In this document: one piece after another, positions 23,195 to 62,047 of the stretch
Position numbering within the stretch: the stretch's first letter is position 1
Layout: each line of letters starts with the position of its first letter
NCBI GenBank assembly: GCA_963281255.1
Contig: OY725501.1
Coordinates: 2,581,674-2,645,673 of the forward strand
Source: Aphrocallistes beatrix
Taxonomy: Eukaryota > Porifera > Hexactinellida > Sceptrulophora > Aphrocallistidae
Direction: 5' to 3'
DNA length: 64,000 nt
The notes under the pieces: generated by a model
The model's input: the letters and a program-made list of their open reading frames with translations, nothing else
What the model was told of the DNA's origin: nothing
Databases searched by the model: none
Program-made: the position numbers and the translations under genes

Positions 23195-26100
23195 TGTTGC
23201 GTGAGATTTTAACTCCCGTGAGATTTTAACTCCCCTATACTAGTGGACCAGGGATATTAGAGTAGCGTGAGGTTTTAACTCCTATGCATGAGATTTAAAC
23301 TCTTAAAATGTACTGGGCTATACAGTTGAACTGTTTAAGTATATAACTCCTTCAGTATTCTATCAGTGATCACACAGAAAAATATTTATTAAATAATTTA
23401 CTAATTTTTGTATATTGCAAATGTTAATTTCTCTCAAAGCATATTTCAAAAATTGACCTAGATATTGTTGTTTTTTTTTATTTTCTAAAATCTTAGACGA
23501 TCAAGTATCAATTTCATATTATTTGATTTATATCTTAATTAATAATTGATAATGCTAAAATAATTATAGACATGAGCAATTCAATATTTTACATCAAACA
23601 TTCCCAATTCTAACAAGGAGAATCATTAATGATTCTTAAGCCTTTTTTGAGAGTTGAGTATAATTTACTAGTTAATTTAACTATTAAAAATGTTATTCTG
23701 CATGCTGATGCATCTTAGCCCGTCGATCCCCGGTTTGAATGGGTGGTATTGTAACTGACATCTAGTAATAACACAAAATACATACAGTATCGGTAAAACA
23801 ATCGAGTAAAATGAAGGATGTAGCAACGAGATTATTCGGAGGTGGTCGTCAAGGTTAGAATACGTAGTAATCATCTTGTTTTAAAGTGTCTTCTAGGAGA
23901 ATGTTGGAGTGAGACTGTTGATCATTGTTGTGACAGGTTCGTAGTGTTCGTAATAATTTGCGATGTATATGGCACTGCTTCCATCATTGCTGTTTGAAGA
24001 ACTTATCCGTAACCAGCGTACCTCTGGGATAATACTGTCCTCAGTTCTATATATTCTGTTCGCAACGTATATATCTGTCTTAAGAAGTGCGGAAGCGGTC
24101 ATCAGTTCAACGTCACTTCCCCAAAAACCTTCGTTACACATGCATTTATTTCCAAGATATTCAGCAGGAGTAGTTGCCAGAACCTGTTCAAAGTACCAAC
24201 TTATATAATCTTTCCCATCACTCAGCATGTAGCGACATATCTCCCCTCGTAGTTTGGTGTGGTATTCTTCAGTCCCTGAGATAATTTTAGATAGACATCT
24301 GAACAGGCAGTTGCCATCACCCGTAATAGTGTCGAACTTCCACGGTTCAAATAAACGCAACTTGTGCCCCTCAATACTGGAATGTTGATCAGTTCGCTGT
24401 CGGAATTTGATGTCTAACAGATTGCACTTATCTTTTTGCCACTCGATAGTGATGGGAGTTATTATAGGGTCGTCGGACCTTAGGTGGTGCATATCGAGAC
24501 GTGGAAATCCATCTGGCCTCAGAGTAAATAATTTATTTTCAATGAATTCCAATGCCTAAATTGAATGAAAATATAAGGTTCTAACTAATATCACTAGTGT
24601 AATAGGTGATTTCTATCATTAGATGTAATTCATTGAATCAAATTACTACTTACCACTCCATATAGTACTTTGTCGACGTAGTCGCAGGTTTTCGAGGGTC
24701 CTAACTCCGGATATGTACTTTTAGCGAACTCCAATAGAATGTAATTGATCTCTCTCCTCTATAAAGATGACCAGTATGTATACGATTGTAAAATTGCAAC
24801 ATTTGATTTCAGATCCAGCAAGATTGTCAAAGGATAATATTCAATGTAAACTTATGTTCATAAATTCCTCTTTAAATGTCATACTCACCACTGTTTCGGG
24901 ACGTGAATCTTTCAAAACTTGATAGATTATTGCATTGGGGACATAGAACCCTTTTACATTAAGTGCCTTATTCAATTCTTCGTGAAGTATGGAGAGGTAT
25001 GTTCCACGGGTTAAGTGATCTTTAAACACCAACTAAAAGAAAAGTTATAACTTATATGTTAATCCTGATAAAGCACTAATATGTTGAAATTTAAACTAAA
25101 TTATATATTAAATACATTTCTGACCTTGAAGTCTTCTAATTCTTTGAGGATAGAATCCTTCGAAATGCCGAATTGCCAATTCGTGTAGGATACTGTTTCT
25201 TGGGTACTTTCCTAGATTATAAAATGTTTTGGGATCATATTTAGAAAAAAATATTGTGAAGATTTTACTCCTATTACCTTGAATTTCTTGCTTACAACAA
25301 CTGATTGGAGATCATCATTGCTTTTATGCTTGGTAATTTTGGACCTCGGAAAATACTGTCTTGATATATGAAGCGGAACCTTCTTGTATTGACAATCGCT
25401 GCCGTCCTTGAGAACTAAAGCATGGCTATCTGTCACGTCAGCTGCTATCATGGGTCCGATATACTTACGTTCTGTTTTGGTTCCGGGAATTTTTTTTGCT
25501 TTTCGCATATTTCTGACAATAATCTGATCTCCTTTCTTTAGATTCGACCTGTTTAAGTAGATTTAATTTAATATACTATATTGACTTGTAAAATAACATA
25601 GAAATGAGATTATATAATTAAGTACCTGTTTTTCTTGACTTTGTTATCGAATACATGTTTTTGTAAAAGTTGCTCTTTGCGAATATTGTCACAAGCTTGT
25701 AATTTTGATCTGGATCGAGCTTTCATTAGAGGTTCTATCCATTCTTCAGGATGTCCAAGTTCAGGAGAGAATTCGGCCAGTACTTCATTATCGCTACTGT
25801 CCACATCACTCAACATCGCCAGGTTTGTATGCTCGAGCAGATGAGCGCAATTGGCTTCTCTCCCATACATTAAATAGAATGGCGAGTAACCTGTTGCTCT
25901 CTTCCAGCAAGTGTTGGCGGCTAGGACAGCAGTTTGTACTTTACTCGGCCACTCTGCTCCTGTTTCTATCACAATCTTGTGAAGTTTACTAAAGTGTACA
26001 AAGAAATATGACAAATTATCCGCTTACGTTCGAATTAATTGGACCGTATTTAATATGCAGTACTTACGTTTTGATTATTTTATTGTGAGCTTCTACAAGG

Positions 26101-43246: not shown

Positions 43247-45153
43247 TCAGTTGAGATCCATGAAAGTGACGTCAGAGTAGAGGAGACAGCGCTTGGGCAG
43301 GGGAGCTGGCTGTGGGGAGAGGAGAGTTATCTCCGACTTCTCCATAGAAACGTCAGTGACGCATAGGAATCCCTGCGTGGAGGCAGTGAGCAGCTTGCTG
43401 GGGTCGTCTGTGGAGCTGACGGACAGGATGTGCGTGACGATCTGAGGGGAGGGGGAGAGCTTGGTGACAGAGGGCCGGATGTCCTCTGCGGTCTCTCCTA
43501 TTGGCAGGAGGGAGGAGGGGATGTCAGATTCCGCGATCTGGAACATCTCCAGCTCCTGGAAGGGGAGCACGATGGAGTGCGGGGACAAGATGCTCTGCTC
43601 CTTCGTCCCGTAAAAGTACGCGCGCGTGCGCTCACGCCGGCTCGCCTTGCGTGCGGCCTTGGTCCGCGCGAGGACGCCCCCGGACTTGGGGAAGTGCAGC
43701 ACATGGACGCCGGGCAGATCCCGCTGGATGTCCACGTAGAGCTTCTCGTGGTCCAGTACGATGACCGTGTAGACGGAGAACTCGCGGGACACGTGCAGCA
43801 GTGAGCTGTAGCCGCCCTCCTCCACCCACCCGCACGTGTTGATCACGCAGCCCGCGTAGCGAGCCTCAGGCAGCGCCTCGTAGCGGCGGCTGACCTTCTC
43901 CGCCAGCTGCGAGACCAGCATGTCGTAGAGCTTGCAGTTGCTCTCCGGCGTGAGGGAACCGAAGTGGAAGACGAGAGGGTTCTGGTGCAGGAATCCGAAT
44001 GCAGGGTCTGCCGGCTGGTCGATTATCTGAGCTCCTAATGGCACAGAGTAGTAAATACCTCTAAACAAATGGCATGCAATTGAGATATTGATAAACTTAG
44101 ATTAGAATGAATTACTGAGTCCCAATCAAACATTGATTCCGGGCACTCTACGCACTCTAACCACTGCCTTTATTCAAGGGTAGAATGCAGCTAGGAGCCA
44201 GGGGTCGACAACACAAAATTTGGTGGTGGCTTTCTTAGCCACCATTTTACTTTTTTCTGGTGGCTAACAGTCACCAAATTCTAAAAACGCTATATAAATA
44301 GACCAATTCTTCATATAATTTGATGGCTTAGTTAGCCACCACGCTAAGGAATTTGGTGACTATCGCCACGAAAAAATACCATATTTGTGGACATACCTAA
44401 TTTACGGAATGGAACGGAACGGAATTTTAAATGCCATTTTACGGAATATCCCATTCCGGATATTATAAATGCCTAATTTACGGAATATTCCGTAAATTAG
44501 GTATGTCCAGATTTGTCGAGCACTGGTAGGAGCGTATTCTTACAAGTGAGAAATTTGAATTTATCTTGTCTACTATTTTATTGAGTCAGTGGATGTGTCT
44601 ACTCGGATAGTCGCATTTGTCGCTACAACTCACCGATGGAACCAGGGATGCTGACACTGCCCTGTCCCACGTCCAGGTCCACGAGCAGTGGCTTGGTGCC
44701 TGCGCGGAGGGTGTAGTTGAGGAGAATCCGGCAAAGCGTGCTCTTCCCCACGTCTTGAGGTCCAGCCACCAGGACGCTCGGTCCGTTCAGCCCCGCCCGT
44801 TTCCTCCGCTCCCGCTCCTGCTCCACCACGATGTGCAAGTTCAGGAAGCGGACCATGGGTGTGGTGTCCGACTTGTAGCACCGGTTCGGATCCCCATTCA
44901 CTATCACCTCACACCCGTACCACGTGTACACGGCCAGCTTGGCGCCCGGGGGGAAGCAGTACACGTGGTTGGACACCAGCTCAGTCCCGAACACCTCCGC
45001 CGTGCCCTTACACAGCACCAGCTTCACGCTCTTCTCGCTCTCCGCCTCGATTCGGAGCTCCGTGTCGTGGTTCAGGATAAAAAGGTGTCCCGGGAGACCG
45101 GTCTTACCAGAGGTGACTGGTACTTCGTCGCCCTGCAGTACCCCTGATGCCAT
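43247..45153 (-). CDS. CLP1: Polyribonucleotide 5'-hydroxyl-kinase CLP1 (2 exons)
   Basis: Exon 1 is 45153-44634 and exon 2 is 44034-43247. The donor is ATCG|GTGAGT and the acceptor CCATTAG|GAGCTC. Joined length is 1308 nt, 435 codons plus stop, close to the family's usual 425. Exon 1 holds the N-terminal beta domain, Walker A GPQDVGKST (residues 131-139) and a Walker-B-like DLDVGQGS at about 159-166. Exon 2 carries the CVINTCGW and FPKSGGV motifs and the C-terminal domain ending FMDLN. The enzyme phosphorylates RNA 5'-OH ends and works with the tRNA-splicing endonuclease and with cleavage factor II in pre-mRNA 3' processing, in the nucleus. Coding exons are strikingly GC-rich. The 599-bp intron carries two nested MITEs. 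Confidence 0.95.
44199..44525. mobile_element. hAT-like MITE in the CLP1 intron, with a second MITE nested
   Basis: CAGGGGTCGACAA...TTGTCGAGCACTG ends, flanked by CTAGGAGC and GTAGGAGC (7 of 8 match). Inside it at about 44390-44509 is GGACATACCTAATTTACGG...CCGTAAATTAGGTATGTCC, flanked by ATATTTGT/AGATTTGT. Confidence 0.65.
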
Positions 45154-47340: not shown

Positions 47341-48127
47341 TACTTACTAACCAACCCCTTGAGAAATAGAGTAGTCTTGAATCAGTGCTATATTGGTAGT
47401 ATCAATAGGTTGTCATAAAACCTCGTTTAGCTGAATATTGTAGGCCATGAGAAATTTCAAATTGTGTTGCCTCATAATAAAAATCGATCGATTCATTATA
47501 ATTTGTCAGCTGTGTGCATTGCTCTTTATTGGAAATGCCAACACTTTCGAATAATGAGAAAGTCTCTTCCATCTCCATAGATTTTCTCCTTTTTTAGTTG
47601 GTTTTAAAACAAGAATTTTTTTGTTGTCAGCCATGTAGTTACTAATATTTTTAGAAACCTAATACAGTAGTTCAATAGGAGTTCAACTGCGAATAAGAGT
47701 TAAGCGACGGTCGAATAAGAGTTAAGCGACTGTCGAATAAGGGTATTTCATATATGAAAAAAACCACCATTAATCCTAATGATAAAAAGTCGAACTATTT
47801 CCTTTTTCAAAAAGTCGAACCATTTCCGCATTACCATCTTAGGTACATGGCAATGGTATTAGGCATTTCAAAACACTCGTTCAATTATATTCAGTAAGTT
47901 TAGGATAGTACGTAGTATATAAAGGATTTTGAGATTTTTCAAGTGTTTTAGGAACTTCATCGATATTAGCCTTCATTAATTAAGTTCATACCAATTGTTT
48001 TTGTATATTTTGGAAAATTATGTCCCGTTTTTCCGATGCTACTATCGATTTACCCAGATTATGAAGTTTAAACAAAAACTGTTTGTATTTGTCAGATACC
48101 ATACCAGTAGCAATGTAAGAAGAGGAG

Positions 48128-48545
48128 ATGGATGTGAAGTTAGCAGCGCGAAAAGTGAGCACGACATAACTGGTTATAACTTTTCGCTTAGGCTGAATAT
48201 CCAGTTCAAATTTGAATCACAGCATTATGAGCGAGGTAGTTTTGTATCATTCCAATTTTTTGTCCCTTTCTTCAAAAACCACTTCACAGTGACTTTGCAA
48301 AAATTCCCGATTTTCACTATACAAATTCATATACAATTTGACTGAGCACGACATAACTGGTTATAACTTTTCGCTTTGGCTGAGTATCCGGTTCAAATTT
48401 GTAACACAGCATTATGAGCGAGGTAGTTTTGTATCATTCCAATTTTTTGTCCCTCTCTTAAAAAAACACTTCACAGTGACTTTGCAAAAATTCCCGATTT
48501 TCACTATACAAATTCATGTACGATTTGAGTTGCATATTTGTAGTA
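48128..48545 (+). repeat. Left TIR: two 187-bp tandem units
   Basis: TGAGCACGACATAACTGGTT recurs at about 48156 and 48343 (187 bp apart). The open frames over these units are a by-product of the repeat. Confidence 0.85.
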
Positions 48546-48722
48546 CACAGTGGAGTTAGGTACAAAATGCTATTGTCATAGATTGTTAATTGTCGTCATT
48601 TGTAGTTAATTTTGGGCGAGTGTTTTAACGTATTCATTATATTGGCTTCTGTGACTATAGCATAATATTCTGATAAATCCAAATAAATATAGTTAATAGT
48701 TAATACGATTATTCTTTGGTTA

Positions 48723-49523
48723 TTGGATAATATTGATAACTTATTCGAATTTCACGCCTATAACATTTCAGTTTTGCATTTACTAATGGGGGTTGATCTT
48801 TGTACATGGCGCAACCACATTGGCATATTCAATTCACGGAAATCTACAAAATCAAGATGCTGCAAAATGATAGCTATTCCTGGATTTGTTACATGCAACA
48901 TTTTGATCTCCATCTTAACAATTCTATCTCTATCCTTACTATTAAAACTCGATTAATATTTGTATATATATATATATGTTACGAATTGATTGAAGAAACT
49001 GCCAGGCGCAGAAAGCTGATTTTTGGCATGTGGGAGTCTTTTGGCTATGGCTCCAGTAAGTTCTGAGCTCAGACGAAAATGTCGACTCATCATGGAATTA
49101 TGACGTCATTGTCACATTTTCAAAAGTTAAGCAACACAGTTATTCGGGCATAACTCAGCCATTATAGGAGATAGAAGGCTGAAATTTTAATAGAATCTGT
49201 ATACTAACATACCTCACATATGATGCGACTTTCATCAAAAAATGATGACTCATCACTTTGTTATGACGTCATCATTACGCATCAAAAATTTTTAAATTCA
49301 CAAATTTGGTGATTTTTCGAGTGATATCGATTAGCACAGTAGGACAGACATATTTAGAGATGTTATCTCCCTTATAATTAACCAATGTGACTCCAGGCGA
49401 CCGAAGGGAGCCTCCGGCGGACACAAAGTGTCCGCCAGCCGCGCAGCGCAAGCAAGCGCGAAGCGCGCTTGTTCCTTATTATTTGCGGAGATGTAGAAGT
49501 GAACCCAGGACCAAGATACAATG
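48723..49523 (+). pseudogene. Upstream exon of the transposase with 2A-like motif, split by an insertion
   Basis: An open frame from ATG 48723 runs into the Helitron-like insertion at 48932/48933. The same frame resumes exactly after it at 49472. It encodes a hydrophobic run and then ICGDVEVNPGPRYN, ending at a possible donor AATG|GTTAGT (49523/49524). GDVEVNPGP (49487-49513) matches the 2A ribosome-skipping signature D-V/I-E-x-N-P-G-P. An acceptor at about 49605 (ATTCAGAG|AATTT) would continue the frame into the 1017-residue ORF. As the sequence stands, the 539-bp insertion breaks this exon. The splice joining is inferred. Confidence 0.55.
48933..49471 (+). mobile_element. Helitron-like element, copy in the Mutator-type transposon
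   Basis: 539 bp, TCCTTACTATT...CGCGCTTG with the GC-rich three-hairpin end, inserted between A (48932) and T (49472) without duplication. Nearly the same length as the copy at 14979-15519. Confidence 0.65.
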
Positions 49524-49657
49524 GTTAGTTATTTTACATATACTACATAATACGTATTATTATTGATGTTTCTAATAATAAGCAATGATATATTTGATTC
49601 AGAGAATTTATTATAGAAACTGGTGATGTCAAGCAAGGTAGCGAGATTGTCTCAAAG

Positions 49658-52600
49658 ATGACCGATGCCTTATCCAAGTTAACTGGTCATGGTTCATTAA
49701 TTCTGAACAATCTCGAATTGCTTAAAACACGAAATTGGCGGGATGCCTCTTCTATCTGGGGTAAGCTGGCAAAATATGTTTATAGAAGAAATCGCTTGCA
49801 ACTACGGGCGAAACTTATGAACATCTGGCGAAACAACAACTGGAATATTAAATCTCAGGTAACACAAGCATTGACACTACCTAAAGATAAATTTACTCTA
49901 CCTATCAGTATCAACATTTCTGAATTACCAGATATTCGTAATCATAACGTGCTTTTCTCCCATTCTGATAATTCACTAGAATCAGACATAAGCTCAATTA
50001 TTAGCATTGAATCCACTGATCAGGTATCTAGTAAAATGCACATAGTTCAGTCGACAAATCGAGGTGAATTTGGATTGACAGGCCAAGAATGGTTCAGAAT
50101 TTTTCCAAATTTTTCAGAAAGTGCTCTGAAGTCAGAATGGACAACCTTATTTAATGAGAAAATTTCCGTTTACTACCCGTTTTGTGTTCTCAAATTTTTA
50201 TACCATCGAATTAACAAAAGCTATTCAAGACGTGGAAGTACATTTCTTATTGCAGCAGCAGTTTGCAAGTTTAGTAATTGTTTCACCTTCAAATTTGAAA
50301 TGGAAACACCGCAAACAAACGCAAGCAATCTTTATCTCGTTAATTATACTGCTACTGGATCAATCTCTGAAGAACATTCATCTAATTTAATTTCGCACAG
50401 CCGACATTTATCTGGAGACAGAAGAGAAGCCACTGCGAAACAGCTTGAACTTTCCAGTCCTTCTAATCTTCATTATTCCCTCTTTGTTGATTCACAAAAT
50501 TTATCCGTTGCCAAAAAAGGAAACTTCAATTATTTACACTCAACCGATGTCATTAGAAAGGTCAAGTCACAGCACTTTGAAAAATCCCGATTTGATAATG
50601 ATATGTGGCAGGACATCATTAGCACCCAAATGTCATATATGAGCACAATCATTGGGAATACTCTTAACGGCTACATTCAATTCATAAGTCATTCCCCATT
50701 CATCATTCACTTGTATAGTGAAGAACAGATAATGTTGTTAAAAAAATTGGAAAAAGAATCTTTTGCATTACATTTAGATGCCACTGGTTCAGTTATCAGG
50801 AAATTAGATCATTTGGGAAAAAGAATCCTCTATTACGCTATCTCAGTAAAGCATCCTCTATCACATGTAAGCCCAATTCCACTTGCTGAGATGGTATCTA
50901 GCGAGCAGACAAACATAGAAATTTCACATTTGCTTAACCGATGGTTATATGACGTAAAGAAGGTGACGAGTAGCGAGATATTACCAAATAAAGTTGAAGT
51001 AGACTTTAGTTGGGCCATGCTACATGGTGTCTGCAATGCCTTTAACAAACAAAACTTAGAATGGTATTTAAATAAATGTTGGGAAACTATTCACAAGAGC
51101 AATTCTACTAATTCAATAAAAGTAATAATACACATATGCTCGGCACACATAATGAATCGGTTTAGCTATAAACTAAGTTCTAAGTTCAGGATGGATAAAC
51201 AGAGGAAACAAAAGATCGTGTTCATAATGGCTCGAATGACGAGTTGTACAACGATGGATGAAATGAATCAGTTATTTGGCGCATTGAGTATGGTATGTTT
51301 ATCAAAAAAGATCTATCCAAAAATTGAAGAATCTTTTGATAAACTTAACAGTTCTATTTGTCTTGATAAGGAGTTCGATTTTGATCTCGAAAATATCACA
51401 GAACTAGATGAATCATTACCCAATGAAATGGGAGATAGCAAAACATACAAATCAAGATCTCCATTTGGTATACATTTTCAGAATGAATTAATGAACTGCA
51501 AGACGCTTGTTGGCATATTTGAAATGGAAGAACAGAATGAAAGCACTCCTAAAAACAACTACTACTTTCCAGATTTACCATCATTTCTTGTAACTCATTA
51601 CATGCCAGTTTGTCCCCTCTGGTCAGGTATTATACTAGGCCCATCCTTGCACCCAGGTCAATATCACGTGACATCCACGAATGCAATTGCAGAAAACTGG
51701 ATGAGAATTGTAAAGATAACAATTTTACACAAACAATGCAAACTAAGACCGGGAGATTTCATTCGCAAATTAAGGGAAGGTATTGTTGGTAGAATAAAGG
51801 CATTCGAATTTGCATTCAATCCATTGAGCCTTAAAGTTCTCAAGAGACAAAAAACACAACAACCAAAAGATTATGATCAAATTGATGAAATGTGGAAGAA
51901 GAAGAAACCAAGACAGACATACTTCAAACCAGGAAAGCCAATGAACTCTAACAAACAAGCTTCACTTAAAAAGTTCAAGAATCCAAGACACGGAAAACTT
52001 AATCATTTGCCTTCCATAATGGTCACTAGCCCTCAGGTCAACTCAAAGGCCGTAACATTGTACACTGATTTGTCTAATGACGATTCTATTCCAGATGAAA
52101 CTCTCTCTATAATAGATGTAAAAACCTATTATCATGGAGAATTCAAGACTGTAACTCCGAGTTGGCAAAGGGAAAAGTGCAAGGTGATAAGACTAACATT
52201 TACAACAGGAATAATATATGAAAATGAAGCCGCTGATAAATCTCTTGAGATTCGACAATTAATTCCTACAAAAGAAAAAAGGATTTCACCTGATGGGAAT
52301 TGCTTGTTTCGCTCTTTATCATATATAATTACTGGAACAGATTACAATCATAAAGAAATACGGGAGTTAATAATTGATAAAATGAAGGGCGAATATAGGA
52401 AATTAGCCACCAATTACGTTCAAGCTCGAAAAGATTTATTGCCAGAGGAACGTTGCAATTCGATTGAAGATTATCTGAAAGCAAGCAAAATGGACCGAGT
52501 AGGATCTTGGGGTACAGACCTAGAAATATTTTTAGCAGCTATCATCCTGAGAACAGATATCTTTGTCTACAATGATGAGGACCAATCCTGGTTGAAATTC

Positions 52601-52711
52601 TCAGGACATGGATTCATTGATGCTAAATCTACACATGATTTAACAGAACGCAAGAGCCACTTTCAGCCTGTCATCAAGGTTAACACCAGAACTCAAGGGC
52701 TTTCAAAATAA
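49658..52711 (+). CDS. Mutator-like transposase fused to an OTU protease
   Basis: 1017 residues without a stop. A Cys/His-rich part at about 185-215 (YPFCVLKFLYHR ... AAVCKFSNC) may be a zinc DNA-binding domain. Candidate catalytic acidic residues are Asp374 (LHLDATG), Asp449 (VEVDFSWAMLHG) and Glu679 (NAIAENWMRIVK), with a Cys-x2-His (HICSAHIMNRF) between the last two, as in Mutator-like enzymes. A Lys/Arg-rich linker (about 725-790) leads to an OTU domain with Asp879 and Cys882 in DGNCLFRS and His1001 in SHFQPV. ATG 49658 is the first Met of this exon. The frame is open upstream to about 49605, where an upstream exon may join. The TIRs of the same element flank it. Family placement is from motif spacing and the 9-bp duplication. 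Confidence 0.75.
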   Translation: MTDALSKLTGHGSLILNNLELLKTRNWRDASSIWGKLAKYVYRRNRLQLRAKLMNIWRNNNWNIKSQVTQALTLPKDKFTLPISINISELPDIRNHNVLFSHSDNSLESDISSIISIESTDQVSSKMHIVQSTNRGEFGLTGQEWFRIFPNFSESALKSEWTTLFNEKISVYYPFCVLKFLYHRINKSYSRRGSTFLIAAAVCKFSNCFTFKFEMETPQTNASNLYLVNYTATGSISEEHSSNLISHSRHLSGDRREATAKQLELSSPSNLHYSLFVDSQNLSVAKKGNFNYLHSTDVIRKVKSQHFEKSRFDNDMWQDIISTQMSYMSTIIGNTLNGYIQFISHSPFIIHLYSEEQIMLLKKLEKESFALHLDATGSVIRKLDHLGKRILYYAISVKHPLSHVSPIPLAEMVSSEQTNIEISHLLNRWLYDVKKVTSSEILPNKVEVDFSWAMLHGVCNAFNKQNLEWYLNKCWETIHKSNSTNSIKVIIHICSAHIMNRFSYKLSSKFRMDKQRKQKIVFIMARMTSCTTMDEMNQLFGALSMVCLSKKIYPKIEESFDKLNSSICLDKEFDFDLENITELDESLPNEMGDSKTYKSRSPFGIHFQNELMNCKTLVGIFEMEEQNESTPKNNYYFPDLPSFLVTHYMPVCPLWSGIILGPSLHPGQYHVTSTNAIAENWMRIVKITILHKQCKLRPGDFIRKLREGIVGRIKAFEFAFNPLSLKVLKRQKTQQPKDYDQIDEMWKKKKPRQTYFKPGKPMNSNKQASLKKFKNPRHGKLNHLPSIMVTSPQVNSKAVTLYTDLSNDDSIPDETLSIIDVKTYYHGEFKTVTPSWQREKCKVIRLTFTTGIIYENEAADKSLEIRQLIPTKEKRISPDGNCLFRSLSYIITGTDYNHKEIRELIIDKMKGEYRKLATNYVQARKDLLPEERCNSIEDYLKASKMDRVGSWGTDLEIFLAAIILRTDIFVYNDEDQSWLKFSGHGFIDAKSTHDLTERKSHFQPVIKVNTRTQGLSK

Positions 52712-52809
52712 GAAGTTTAGTTCCATAGTAAATATACTATGAAGTTAGTCACATAGAAATTTAGAACTAGTACACAATTATATTGCAATTCTGATTCAGC
52801 GCGTCAAGA

Positions 52810-53406
52810 ATAGAAATATTAGCATATTCATAAATTTGTATTGTGAAAATCGGGAATTTTTGCAAAGTCACTGTGAAGTGGTTTTTGAAGAAAGGGACAA
52901 AAAATTGGAAAAATACAAAACTACCTCGCTCATAATGCTGTGATACAAATTTGAACAGGATATTCAGCCTAAGCGAAAAGTTATAACCAGTTATGTCGTG
53001 CTCAGTCAAATTGTATATGAATTTGTATAGTGAAAATCGGGAATTTTTGCAAAGTCACTGTGAAGTGGTTTTTGAAGAAAGGGACAAAAAATTGGAAAAA
53101 TACAAAACTACCTCGCTCATAATGCTGTGATACAAATTTGAACTGGATATTCAGCCTAAGCGAAAAGTTATAACCAGTTATGTCGTGCTCAGTCAAATCG
53201 TATATGAATTTGTATAGTGAAAATCGGGAAATTTTGCAAAGTCACTGTGAAGTGGTTTTTGAAGAAAGGGACAAAAAATTGGAAAAATACAAAACTACCT
53301 CGCTCATAATGCAGTGATACAATTTTGAACTGGATATTCAGCCTAAGTGAAAAGTTATAACCAGTTATGTCGTGCTCACTTTTCGCGCTGCTAACTTCAC
53401 ATCCAT
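52810..53406 (-). repeat. Right TIR: three 187-bp tandem units
   Basis: Reverse-oriented copies of the left units. TTATGTCGTGCTCA recurs at about 52991, 53178 and 53365. The unit number differs from the left arm, as is common in Foldback elements. Confidence 0.85.
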
Positions 53407-53415
53407 GAAGAGGAG

Positions 53416-59722: not shown

Positions 59723-62047
59723 ATGAGATTCCTATTCTTATGCTTGATTGTACTTGCATTAACTGCCAATGTTGTTGATTCAGAAAATTGTAGCATTCGA
59801 GGACTGTTAAGATCTGATCCATTTTCCTTTGGTTTTACTTGTAACATTAATAACTGTGATACTATTCAAGTCTGCACTAATGTCACGGGTTCCTTAGAAT
59901 GGACTAATGTTTGTTTTGATGAAGATTGGGATCAGAATAACATCAATGTGTATTGTAGACAGTTTGGATATTCAGGAGCTAACTCTGTATCTGGGAGTTT
60001 AGATGGCGTTTATAGATCCATTTTTATTTATGGCGCTAATGAAGTTAAACTTTCTAATGTTGATTGCGTTGGTGATGAACCTAATTTGCTAAGTTGTGCA
60101 TATACAACTACAAACTTAGCATGTAGATACCCACTCTATGACCCATCTACACATTGCTTCTCTTCAAGTGTGGTCACTAGCACAGCTAATTCAACTACAT
60201 TCTTCCCATCCACGTACACTATACAAGCGACAAGTACCAACTCAACTATTTCTGCATCACTAACGAATACCGATACACCACCTACTACTTCCACTTCTTC
60301 TGGTGATAATGGCATAGTGTCATCCATTCCATCTGAAAGCTATAGCCTAAGCTCTACATCAACCGATTCCATCCCTAATAACGTAACGTCCATATCTACC
60401 TCGTCTCGTAGTGACTTACTAGTAACTCCCACACCACCTCCTAACATAACTCCCAGTCCTGGCATACCTTCGACTTCCTCCACTACTCCCTCCTCTAGTT
60501 TGTCTACTCAATCTGTAGCTTCAACTCAGCAGTCAAGGATATCGTTGATGCTGATTCCCATTTTAGTTCCTATCATAGCCATTCTTGTCATCCTGACTAT
60601 TCTCACCATTGTCATTCTGGTACTGTCGTGTATATTCTGCCCTCGTAGGAAAAGAACTACAGATAATGACGAGACCGCCATGTATGCTGAGTTATCTGAA
60701 ATACCGAGTTTGAATAGTAAAGTAGAATATCAAAATACTGTCATTATCAACCGAGACGCTGACTACACTGCTATCAATGAGTCTTCACTGATGGATAGAG
60801 ATTATGCTTATGCTGAGATAGGAAAACGAACTTTTGAATGTGGAGATGTCCAAGAATATCTAGTGCCGACAATTACTAATAATTGCATCCTAGAAAATGA
60901 TGAATTTTGTGAGGGTCTGGTAGAAGGCGAAGTGAGTAACTGGAACTCGTGTGGACAATTACCTGGAATGGGTCAGGTAGCTTATCACAATTTGGCTGCA
61001 ATTAGCTCAAGTACACTCGAGAATCCTCTGCATGACATACTGGTTAAAGAATCTCTTTACGAGGAACTCATCTACATAGAGCCCCCTTCTAGTCTGCCTC
61101 AGCTAGAGAACGTGTTCGGACAATGTCTGAACGAGATCAGGAGGAAGGACATCCAGATGGGAGAAGAGTTCGCATCCGGACAGTTCGGAGTGGTGTATCG
61201 GGCTGTCTACCACACTGAGAAAGGAGACATTCCTGTCGCCATCAAGACACTGAAGGAGGCTGCCAACACGGACACAAAGGTGGCATTCATGCGAGAAACT
61301 GCCATCCTAGCTCAGTTCCAGCACCCTAACGTCCTCCGGATGATCGGAGTCCTCACAACTCAGCAGCCCTACATGATGGTGACGGAGCTACTCAAGACAG
61401 AACTGGCAGATTTACTGTTGAAAATGAAATCAGCTGATCCCGCACACAGACAGAATCTCCCTCTTCTACTCCTCAGATTCTGTCAAGAGATAGCCGCCGG
61501 AATGAAACACCTGTCAGAGAAACACTTCATTCACAGATACCTGAGTGCGAGGAATGTGTTAGTGGCAAAAGATCTCTCGTGTCGAATCGCAGATTTCGGT
61601 ATGTCCCGTGAGCTCCACTCTGACAGTGAGTACTACACCTCGTCAGGAGGTCGTGTCCCGTTACGCTGGACAGCTCCTGAAGCCGTCTTCTACAAGAAAT
61701 ACTCAGAGAAGTCGGACGTGTGGTCGTTCGGGATGACGATGTATGAGATATGGTCGTTGGGAGATAAGCCTTGGGGTTTGTATACGAACGATGAGATCGT
61801 TGAAGGGATGAGTCAGGGTAAGAAGTTGTCTCCTCCCACTGGTTGTCCACGAGACGTGTACCGTGTCATGGTGGAAACCTGGAGAGCAGATGCTTCCGTT
61901 CGTCCTACTTTTTCTGATGCACAGGTGATGCTGACTGATATTCAGCTCCCTCCTCCTATTCCCGGTGTGAATGAACCTTCTCTCTGTCTAGGGAATGACC
62001 CTGTCCTAGCTCAGGATCTCTATCCTGATCTCCAACAGGTTCTGTAA
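59723..62047 (+). CDS. SRCR-domain receptor with tyrosine-kinase-like domain, catalytic Asp missing
   Basis: 774 residues in one exon. Signal peptide 1-20; one SRCR domain (about 22-135, with the VYCRQFGYSGA and VDCVGDEPNLLSC motifs); Ser/Thr/Pro-rich stalk (140-270); transmembrane helix about 275-308; juxtamembrane region rich in Tyr motifs (MYAEL, EYQNTV, DYAYAEI, EYLVP, IYIEPP); kinase domain about 477-745. The kinase keeps Lys508 in VAIK, Asp624 in DFG, APE and the RTK-type C-lobe, but the HRD motif reads HRY (Tyr606, codon 61538-61540). The first Gly of the nucleotide loop is Ala (FASGQFG). It is therefore predicted to be a pseudokinase or very weak enzyme, acting at the plasma membrane as a scaffold or co-receptor. 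The paralogue at 39449 is broken. Confidence 0.88.
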   Translation: MRFLFLCLIVLALTANVVDSENCSIRGLLRSDPFSFGFTCNINNCDTIQVCTNVTGSLEWTNVCFDEDWDQNNINVYCRQFGYSGANSVSGSLDGVYRSIFIYGANEVKLSNVDCVGDEPNLLSCAYTTTNLACRYPLYDPSTHCFSSSVVTSTANSTTFFPSTYTIQATSTNSTISASLTNTDTPPTTSTSSGDNGIVSSIPSESYSLSSTSTDSIPNNVTSISTSSRSDLLVTPTPPPNITPSPGIPSTSSTTPSSSLSTQSVASTQQSRISLMLIPILVPIIAILVILTILTIVILVLSCIFCPRRKRTTDNDETAMYAELSEIPSLNSKVEYQNTVIINRDADYTAINESSLMDRDYAYAEIGKRTFECGDVQEYLVPTITNNCILENDEFCEGLVEGEVSNWNSCGQLPGMGQVAYHNLAAISSSTLENPLHDILVKESLYEELIYIEPPSSLPQLENVFGQCLNEIRRKDIQMGEEFASGQFGVVYRAVYHTEKGDIPVAIKTLKEAANTDTKVAFMRETAILAQFQHPNVLRMIGVLTTQQPYMMVTELLKTELADLLLKMKSADPAHRQNLPLLLLRFCQEIAAGMKHLSEKHFIHRYLSARNVLVAKDLSCRIADFGMSRELHSDSEYYTSSGGRVPLRWTAPEAVFYKKYSEKSDVWSFGMTMYEIWSLGDKPWGLYTNDEIVEGMSQGKKLSPPTGCPRDVYRVMVETWRADASVRPTFSDAQVMLTDIQLPPPIPGVNEPSLCLGNDPVLAQDLYPDLQQVL

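Follow-up and report, generated by a model that had tools for sequence, protein, structure and literature searches.

The window, by which we mean the whole 64-kb stretch of DNA analysed here, contains a Mutator/foldback-like DNA transposon at 48128..53406 on the forward strand, a copy of what we call family A. The element is flanked by the same 9 bp on both sides, the target-site duplication (TSD) GAAGAGGAG at 48119..48127 and 53407..53415, and it ends in terminal inverted repeats (TIRs) of 401 nt, the left at 48128..48528 and the right at 53006..53406 on the opposite strand, which are 95% complementary. Two tandem subrepeats of about 187 bp lie in the left TIR (48156-48341 and 48343-48528, forward strand), and three of 187 bp fill 52830..53390 in the right terminal repeat region (reverse strand). 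A 9-bp TSD was present in both of the copies of which we could read both ends: L010, on contig C3, shares its ends with the window copy and has a TSD of its own, GAATCATAG. The main open reading frame (ORF) of the element, 49658-52711 on the forward strand with its stop at 52709-52711, encodes a transposase of 1,017 aa that carries an OTU-like cysteine protease domain at its C-terminus (residues 878-976, 52289..52585; Pfam PF02338, E 1e-9). OTU was the only Pfam match in this ORF, and no reverse transcriptase or endonuclease was matched there. A second OTU-domain ORF of 219 aa lies at 23893-24552 on the reverse strand (PF02338, E 2.5e-10); its identity to the transposase family, over the C-terminal part, is about 30%, and it is perhaps the remnant of a more distant relative. 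Elsewhere in the window, an ORF at 59723-62047 encodes SRCR and tyrosine-kinase domains, which points to an animal genome, and the region 43247-45153 holds CLP1 exons on the reverse strand.

The original prediction had assumed a Mutator-type element, and the transposon does look like one, with membership unproven. The assignment is based on the 9-bp TSD (8-11 bp in this class), the long TIRs and the pattern of conserved residues. In alignment A1, D374, D449, C494 and H497 are invariant and E679 is nearly so, and from these we assigned DDE and CxxH roles by eye: D374 (50777..50779, in the invariant LDATGS), D449 (51002..51004, in EVDFSW) and E679 (51692..51694, in NAIAENWMRI) are the proposed first, second and third catalytic acidic residues, and C494-x-x-H497 (51137..51148) would be the CxxH motif described in PMC5225508. 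A CxxH motif is common to MULE and hAT transposases (PMC5225508), and a 9-bp duplication together with long, repeat-bearing TIRs fits Mutator as well as foldback elements (PMC3169594, PMC6446971). The Pfam MULE model PF10551, however, matched none of the ten members of A1, and none of the 150 scored matches of a genome-wide PF10551 search fell, by eye, at the 53 places of the transposase family. Neither the FLYWCH zinc finger nor the MULE domain, by which Phantom elements are defined (PMC3169594), gave a Pfam match in the transposase members examined, where the matches were OTU and three weak ones (E 0.059 or more, one member each). An NCBIfam scan of the transposase returned 0 families, and a profile search of the viral collection gave 24 pattern matches, none of them confirmed. 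A profile search of the PDB yielded nine sequences, each of them an OTU protein or a viral polymerase chain that aligned with the OTU part (best E 1.2e-4), and an AlphaFold model of residues 285-770, run without an alignment, had a mean pLDDT of 33, too low to be of use.

Upstream of the transposase, GGAGATGTAGAAGTGAACCCAGGACCA at 49487..49513 encodes GDVEVNPGP, the core of a 2A (StopGo) sequence, exactly where it had been predicted; NPGP is encoded nowhere else in the window, in any of the six frames. The core directly follows LFLIIC. A hydrophobic run in a frame starting at 48723 had been placed before it, but the first ATG of the leader stands at 48786. What we regard as exon 1 consists of two parts on the forward strand: 48786..48933, with the ATG and a signal-like leader beginning with MGVDLCTWRNHIGIFNSRKSTKSRCCKMIAIPGFVTCNILISILTILS, and 49472..49523, which encodes LFLIIC, the 2A and RYN and closes with one base of a codon that the predicted intron splits. 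The two are separated by an inserted repeat at 48934..49471, whose boundary is ambiguous by one base. The alignment with L053, an uninterrupted copy, breaks off in the window after 48933 and resumes at 49472; the window has a net gain of 539 bases there but no target duplication, and the flanking frames are therefore in register. The proposed restoration of the frame across the insertion is correct to this extent, but the leader frame from ATG 48786 meets a stop inside the insertion (after LLLKLD), which probably leaves the window copy itself unable to make the leader-2A protein. The insertion belongs to a repeat with at least 71 matches in the genome (window and fragments included; the best candidates were scored), presumably a non-autonomous Helentron-type element. 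Many of its copies are nearly identical, and several stand in head-to-tail arrays, for example at C11:2080785-2082413; the insertion target lies between two T residues (CTCTAT/TCCTT), and a hairpin with a 9-bp stem is found at the 3' end of the insertion.

The check to which the original prediction had pointed, on copies without the insertion, brought up copies with a complete leader. At five of the nine family-A 2A sites in the genome (L041, L043, L044, L053 and L061), 54 residues run without interruption from the ATG to the residue before GDVEVNPGP. The leader is not intact at the other four, L048 (frame shifted by two bases), L064 (the copy in the window), L065 (frame off, with stops) and L066 (ATG not found). 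By the predicted join described below, the 2A would thus lie at the N-terminus of the protein at these five sites, with the ATG 54 codons before the core G. The suggested likeness to the dual signal-sequence/2A arrangement of animal proteins is supported by these leaders, with a signal role that is putative.

A genome-wide search (100.5 Mb) with the strict core pattern GD(V/I/M)ExNPGP yielded 30 sites, against 0 for the same pattern reversed, which served as control; the same 30 sites were obtained without the leading Gly. They comprise six forms: A, GDVEVNPGP (9 sites); B, GDVELNPGP (6); C, GDIELNPGP (10); D, GDIESNPGP (2); E, GDIEANPGP (2); and F, GDVETNPGP (1). Transposase similarity follows on the same strand within 1.5 kb downstream at 25 of these sites, the exceptions being L040, L047, L050, L054 and L067. 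The automated count within 1.5 kb was 26; we left L054 out because we took its match to be the end of the L032 reading frame outside the transposase match, an end that also matches L050 and L067. At L050, the transposase lies 2.8 kb downstream in a further flank, giving 26 of 30 when the extra flank is counted. Since L054 and L067 have form C and L040 has form D, only form F is not tied to the transposase family: at L047 no transposase was found downstream, extra flank included. This site (C6:2432970) has its GDVETNPGP after a very hydrophobic open stretch and may represent another gene that carries a 2A leader.

The motif is also found when the search starts from the transposase, and close copies do not lack it, a possibility that had been raised against the original prediction at the outset. 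Matches of at least 93% identity occur at eight places; all seven for which we have a locus carry the 2A in the flank, and at the eighth (C4:2949641) a 2A site lies about 3 kb upstream. Of the 30 loci that were retrieved by their similarity to the transposase (L009-L038), 12 have the core in their 1.5-kb flanks; most of the remaining 18 belong to families G, H, I and J or are partial matches, in which the flank may miss exon 1. When the E and x codons were left free, a single site was added (GDVAENPGP, C1:2755523-2755548). A still looser pattern, with 145 matches and 5 for its control, carries no weight as evidence; among the matches listed, many are one repeat (GTCGAATGAAATCC...).

Direct read-through from the 2A into the transposase is ruled out in the window by a stop after RYNG past the last Pro, and this stop overlaps a donor-like GTTAGT at 49524. 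The proposed connection between leader-2A and transposase would run by way of a predicted phase-1 intron. In the family-A copy of the window, removal of 81, 93 or 114 nt (acceptor AG at 49604, 49616 or 49637) joins the 2A frame to ORF 49658, with GDVEVNPGP-RYN-ETGDVKQGSEIVSK-MTDALSKL as an example of the predicted product; we place the intron at 49524..49616 and exon 2 at 49617..52711. A nearer CAG would, read by eye, lead to a stop in family A, and the in-frame ATG at 49658 could start the family-A transposase without exon 1. A phase-1 GT donor-like hexamer follows the 2A at all 30 sites. Counted from the first base of the final Pro codon, its distance is 13 nt at 24 sites and 10 nt at the six of family B; three donor forms, GTACAG (D), GTATAC (F) and GTAACT (a single C site), were entered into this search after they had been seen. 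In-frame joins are predicted for families A, B, E, H and G and for one of the two C loci tried, and none was found at the other, L026. The predicted introns measure 70-71 nt in B (first acceptor), 312 nt in C (L024), 530 nt in E (first acceptor), 66 nt in H (first acceptor) and 69 nt in G, and several in-frame acceptors are often present per family. The phase-1 boundary is common to the families, which suggests that the exons are homologous across them, and exon 1 is presumably spliced to exon 2.

Both the core and its upstream context are those of known 2A sequences. The core (D/G/C/N)(V/I)ExNPGP is the expanded 2A core of PMC12846837, and L-rich residues ending in (S/C)G before DV or DI characterize motifs 2 and 6 of that study, of which one motif 6 example was assayed active. 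In the six forms, the residues before the core read, by eye, FLIICG, LLLLCG, KLLLSG, LLLQCG, QLLICG and RLLSCG (E from L062), so that an L-rich context ending in (A/S/C)G accompanies the core; the second E copy, L052, reads NYYYICG. Pairwise comparison of the six forms, with the x codon left out, gave 9, 0 and 67 differences out of 120 at codon positions 1, 2 and 3, respectively. Third positions thus hold 67 of the 76 differences, all nine first-position differences concern the Val/Ile codon, and the counts become 18, 0 and 88 of 168 when family H is added. By this codon comparison, the 2A residues stayed while synonymous places changed, a pattern that is partly conditioned on the motif because the 30 sites were found by it. 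The transposase itself is under purifying selection between families A and G (pN 0.25, pS 0.75 over 997 codons).

The leaders differ considerably. That of family A has a charged stretch followed by about 20 hydrophobic residues, and the best 15-aa mean hydropathy (whole leader if shorter) is 3.10 in A, 2.32 in F, 2.17 in D, 2.10 in C, 1.30 in H, 1.25 in B and 1.03 in E, where the start codons of C, D and E were chosen from one copy each and an open stretch without Met was used for F. Leader lengths range from 13 to 54 aa in the families with a chosen ATG (A, B, C, D and E). The leaders of B, with 13 aa, and of E, with the lowest hydropathy, are weak as signal sequences.

Some relatives of the window transposase lack an intact 2A. 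Identity to the window protein is 44-48% in B, 45% in C, 59% in G, 52% in H and 35-37% in I and J. Family H (L017, L018 and L019) has MSSLILRCGDIETNPGSLQ before the phase-1 donor, with the last Pro replaced by Ser (NPGS) and a leader of 8 aa. It has likely lost skipping, and we go no further than likely because Ser is not named among the residues flagged at the place of the last Pro (P, M and W) and other variants can be partly active (PMC12846837). The 2A is absent from the family-G flank that was read; all five copies have an ATG at the place of NPGP (MSADYSN versus NPGPRYN), followed by the phase-1 donor. For families I and J, no NPGP was found within the 1.5-kb flanks (L033, L034 and L038), and a Met stands close to the conserved N-terminus. 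In a midpoint-rooted tree of 14 of the 18 rows, in which E is a long branch with 24% of the columns, the groupings A+G and B+C are fully supported, and the labels intact, broken and absent 2A require three changes, a number as low in 2 of 200 shuffles. This fits one gain and two losses of the 2A if families I and J lie outside. The five family-G copies L012-L016 (on C4, C6, C7, C7 and C15) are equal in match score, length and exon positions, which suggests a recent burst of the family-G lineage without a 2A. As judged from these copies, the 2A is not essential for transposition, since G and H have no intact 2A and G has five copies of equal match score.

The original interpretation as a whole largely holds. 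We consider it probable that this DNA transposon family possesses an extra exon 1, whose signal-like leader and active 2A would free, after splicing, an OTU-bearing transposase. The motif, the leader, the common phase-1 donor position, the in-frame join, the repeated association with the transposase, the codon-change pattern and the two families without intact 2A are present in the sequence. From these we infer splicing, skipping, signal activity and a role in dosage or targeting. Exon 1 would encode a hydrophobic, signal-sequence-like leader ending in the 2A, and removal of a short phase-1 intron would join it to the transposase. Ribosomes would then make the leader, skip the Gly-Pro bond between NPG and P and release the leader, and would go on to the transposase, whose chain would begin P-R-Y-N-E. 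Freed of the leader, the transposase could reach the nucleus, and unskipped chains would remain fused to the leader and enter the secretory pathway, where they would be out of use; the dose of transposase would thereby be limited. We propose this by analogy with the two-fate layout of the sea urchin protein SpNLR2A, of which the skipped form goes to the cytosol and the unskipped form to the secretory route (Roulston et al. 2016, PMC4981915). In family H the leader is short and the 2A broken, and family G has neither, which fits leader and 2A acting as one unit.

The weak leaders of families B and E would also be compatible with plain attenuation. The 2A could act mainly as an attenuator, at which some ribosomes fall off and the transposase dose stays low, with a leader that has no targeting role, and termination at the 2A is indeed one of the outcomes that have been modelled (PMC4981915). 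Attenuation would not, however, need the long and hydrophobic open stretch that precedes the 2A in A, C, D and F, and in H a short leader accompanies the broken 2A; we regard this explanation as unlikely, though the most serious of the alternatives.

A start of the transposase at the internal ATG 49658 is less likely still. In that case, leader and 2A would be a transcribed upstream ORF or a relic that at most lowers initiation. This ATG is in frame and, in family A, directly precedes the conserved region, and families I and J have a Met near the corresponding place and no 2A in the flanks examined. Family B, on the other hand, lacks a Met anywhere from the predicted acceptor to the conserved NWRDSM..WG core, and family G needs exon 1 for a start near the place of ATG 49658. 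The frame from exon 1 to exon 2 can moreover be kept in the six families tried, and a relic is unlikely to hold its 2A residues while third positions vary.

It is very improbable that leader and 2A are a piece of a LINE (non-LTR retrotransposon) ORF lying in the transposon by chance, the other objection foreseen in the original prediction. We take the leader type found here to resemble that of LINEs. LINEs are, moreover, a known home of 2A sequences (PMC4981915). Against such a fragment, all six 2A forms have a phase-1 donor-like site at the end of the exon, the diverged families B and C have 2A versions of their own, and the downstream transposase at 25 of 30 sites leads us to reject a LINE fragment with its own boundaries. 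A chance match, for which only the shortness of the motif could speak, is refuted by the 30 against 0 sites and their clustering on one transposon family, and has practically no probability.

A wider history can be outlined, which we put forward tentatively and with somewhat less than even confidence. The leader-2A exon may have been added once, beside a phase-1 intron, as a self-limiting switch that sends part of the transposase to the nucleus and part into the secretory pathway; two lineages could later have escaped, either through NPGS and a shortened leader or through a start just past the 2A. This would be the first 2A control of a DNA transposase.

2A sequences in non-LTR retrotransposons were reportedly described by Odon et al. 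2013. Those elements are likewise mobile and have the 2A in a coding region, whereas here its carrier is a DNA transposon that has TIRs and a 9-bp duplication and whose ORF has no Pfam reverse transcriptase match. In SpNLR2A (PMC4981915), too, a large protein is preceded at the N-terminus by a hydrophobic leader that closes with D(V/I)ExNPGP, but it concerns host immune genes with leaders of 26 aa, and we find a DNA transposase, leaders of 13-54 aa and a predicted phase-1 intron. The L-rich class of viral 2A/StopGo sequences (Li et al. 2026, PMC12846837, motifs 2/6) has the same D(V/I)ExNPGP core and the same L-rich residues ending in (S/C)G, but our case involves a predicted spliced transposon gene and no viral polyprotein. 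Mutator Phantom and foldback elements (Tm1, PMC3169594; survey, PMC6446971) resemble the transposon in the 9-bp TSD, the long, repeat-bearing TIRs and what may be DDE-type residues with CxxH, and differ from it in that the present element has an OTU domain and a leader-2A exon and no Pfam MULE or FLYWCH match. A C-terminal OTU protease on a DNA transposase recalls Ginger1 elements with OTU or Ulp1 domains (PMC2836005), but Ginger1 carries a Gypsy-like integrase, for which there is no such Pfam match here.

In the available accounts, StopGo is for the most part a viral feature that cellular coding sequences contain very rarely (PMC12846837), and 2A is placed in viruses, non-LTR retrotransposons and some NLR genes (PMC4981915, PMC12846837). 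Our literature search, which covered titles and the beginnings of abstracts and did not extend to the eukaryotic 2A survey of Rao et al. 2025 or to Repbase, found no report of a 2A in a DNA transposon among the papers listed. A conserved 2A exon before a DNA transposase would extend StopGo to another class of genetic element. The intact, broken and replaced 2A sequences within one genome offer a natural series for the role of a 2A on a nucleus-bound protein, and the proposed mechanism may provide a testable model of transposase dose control, together with new natural 2A sequences.
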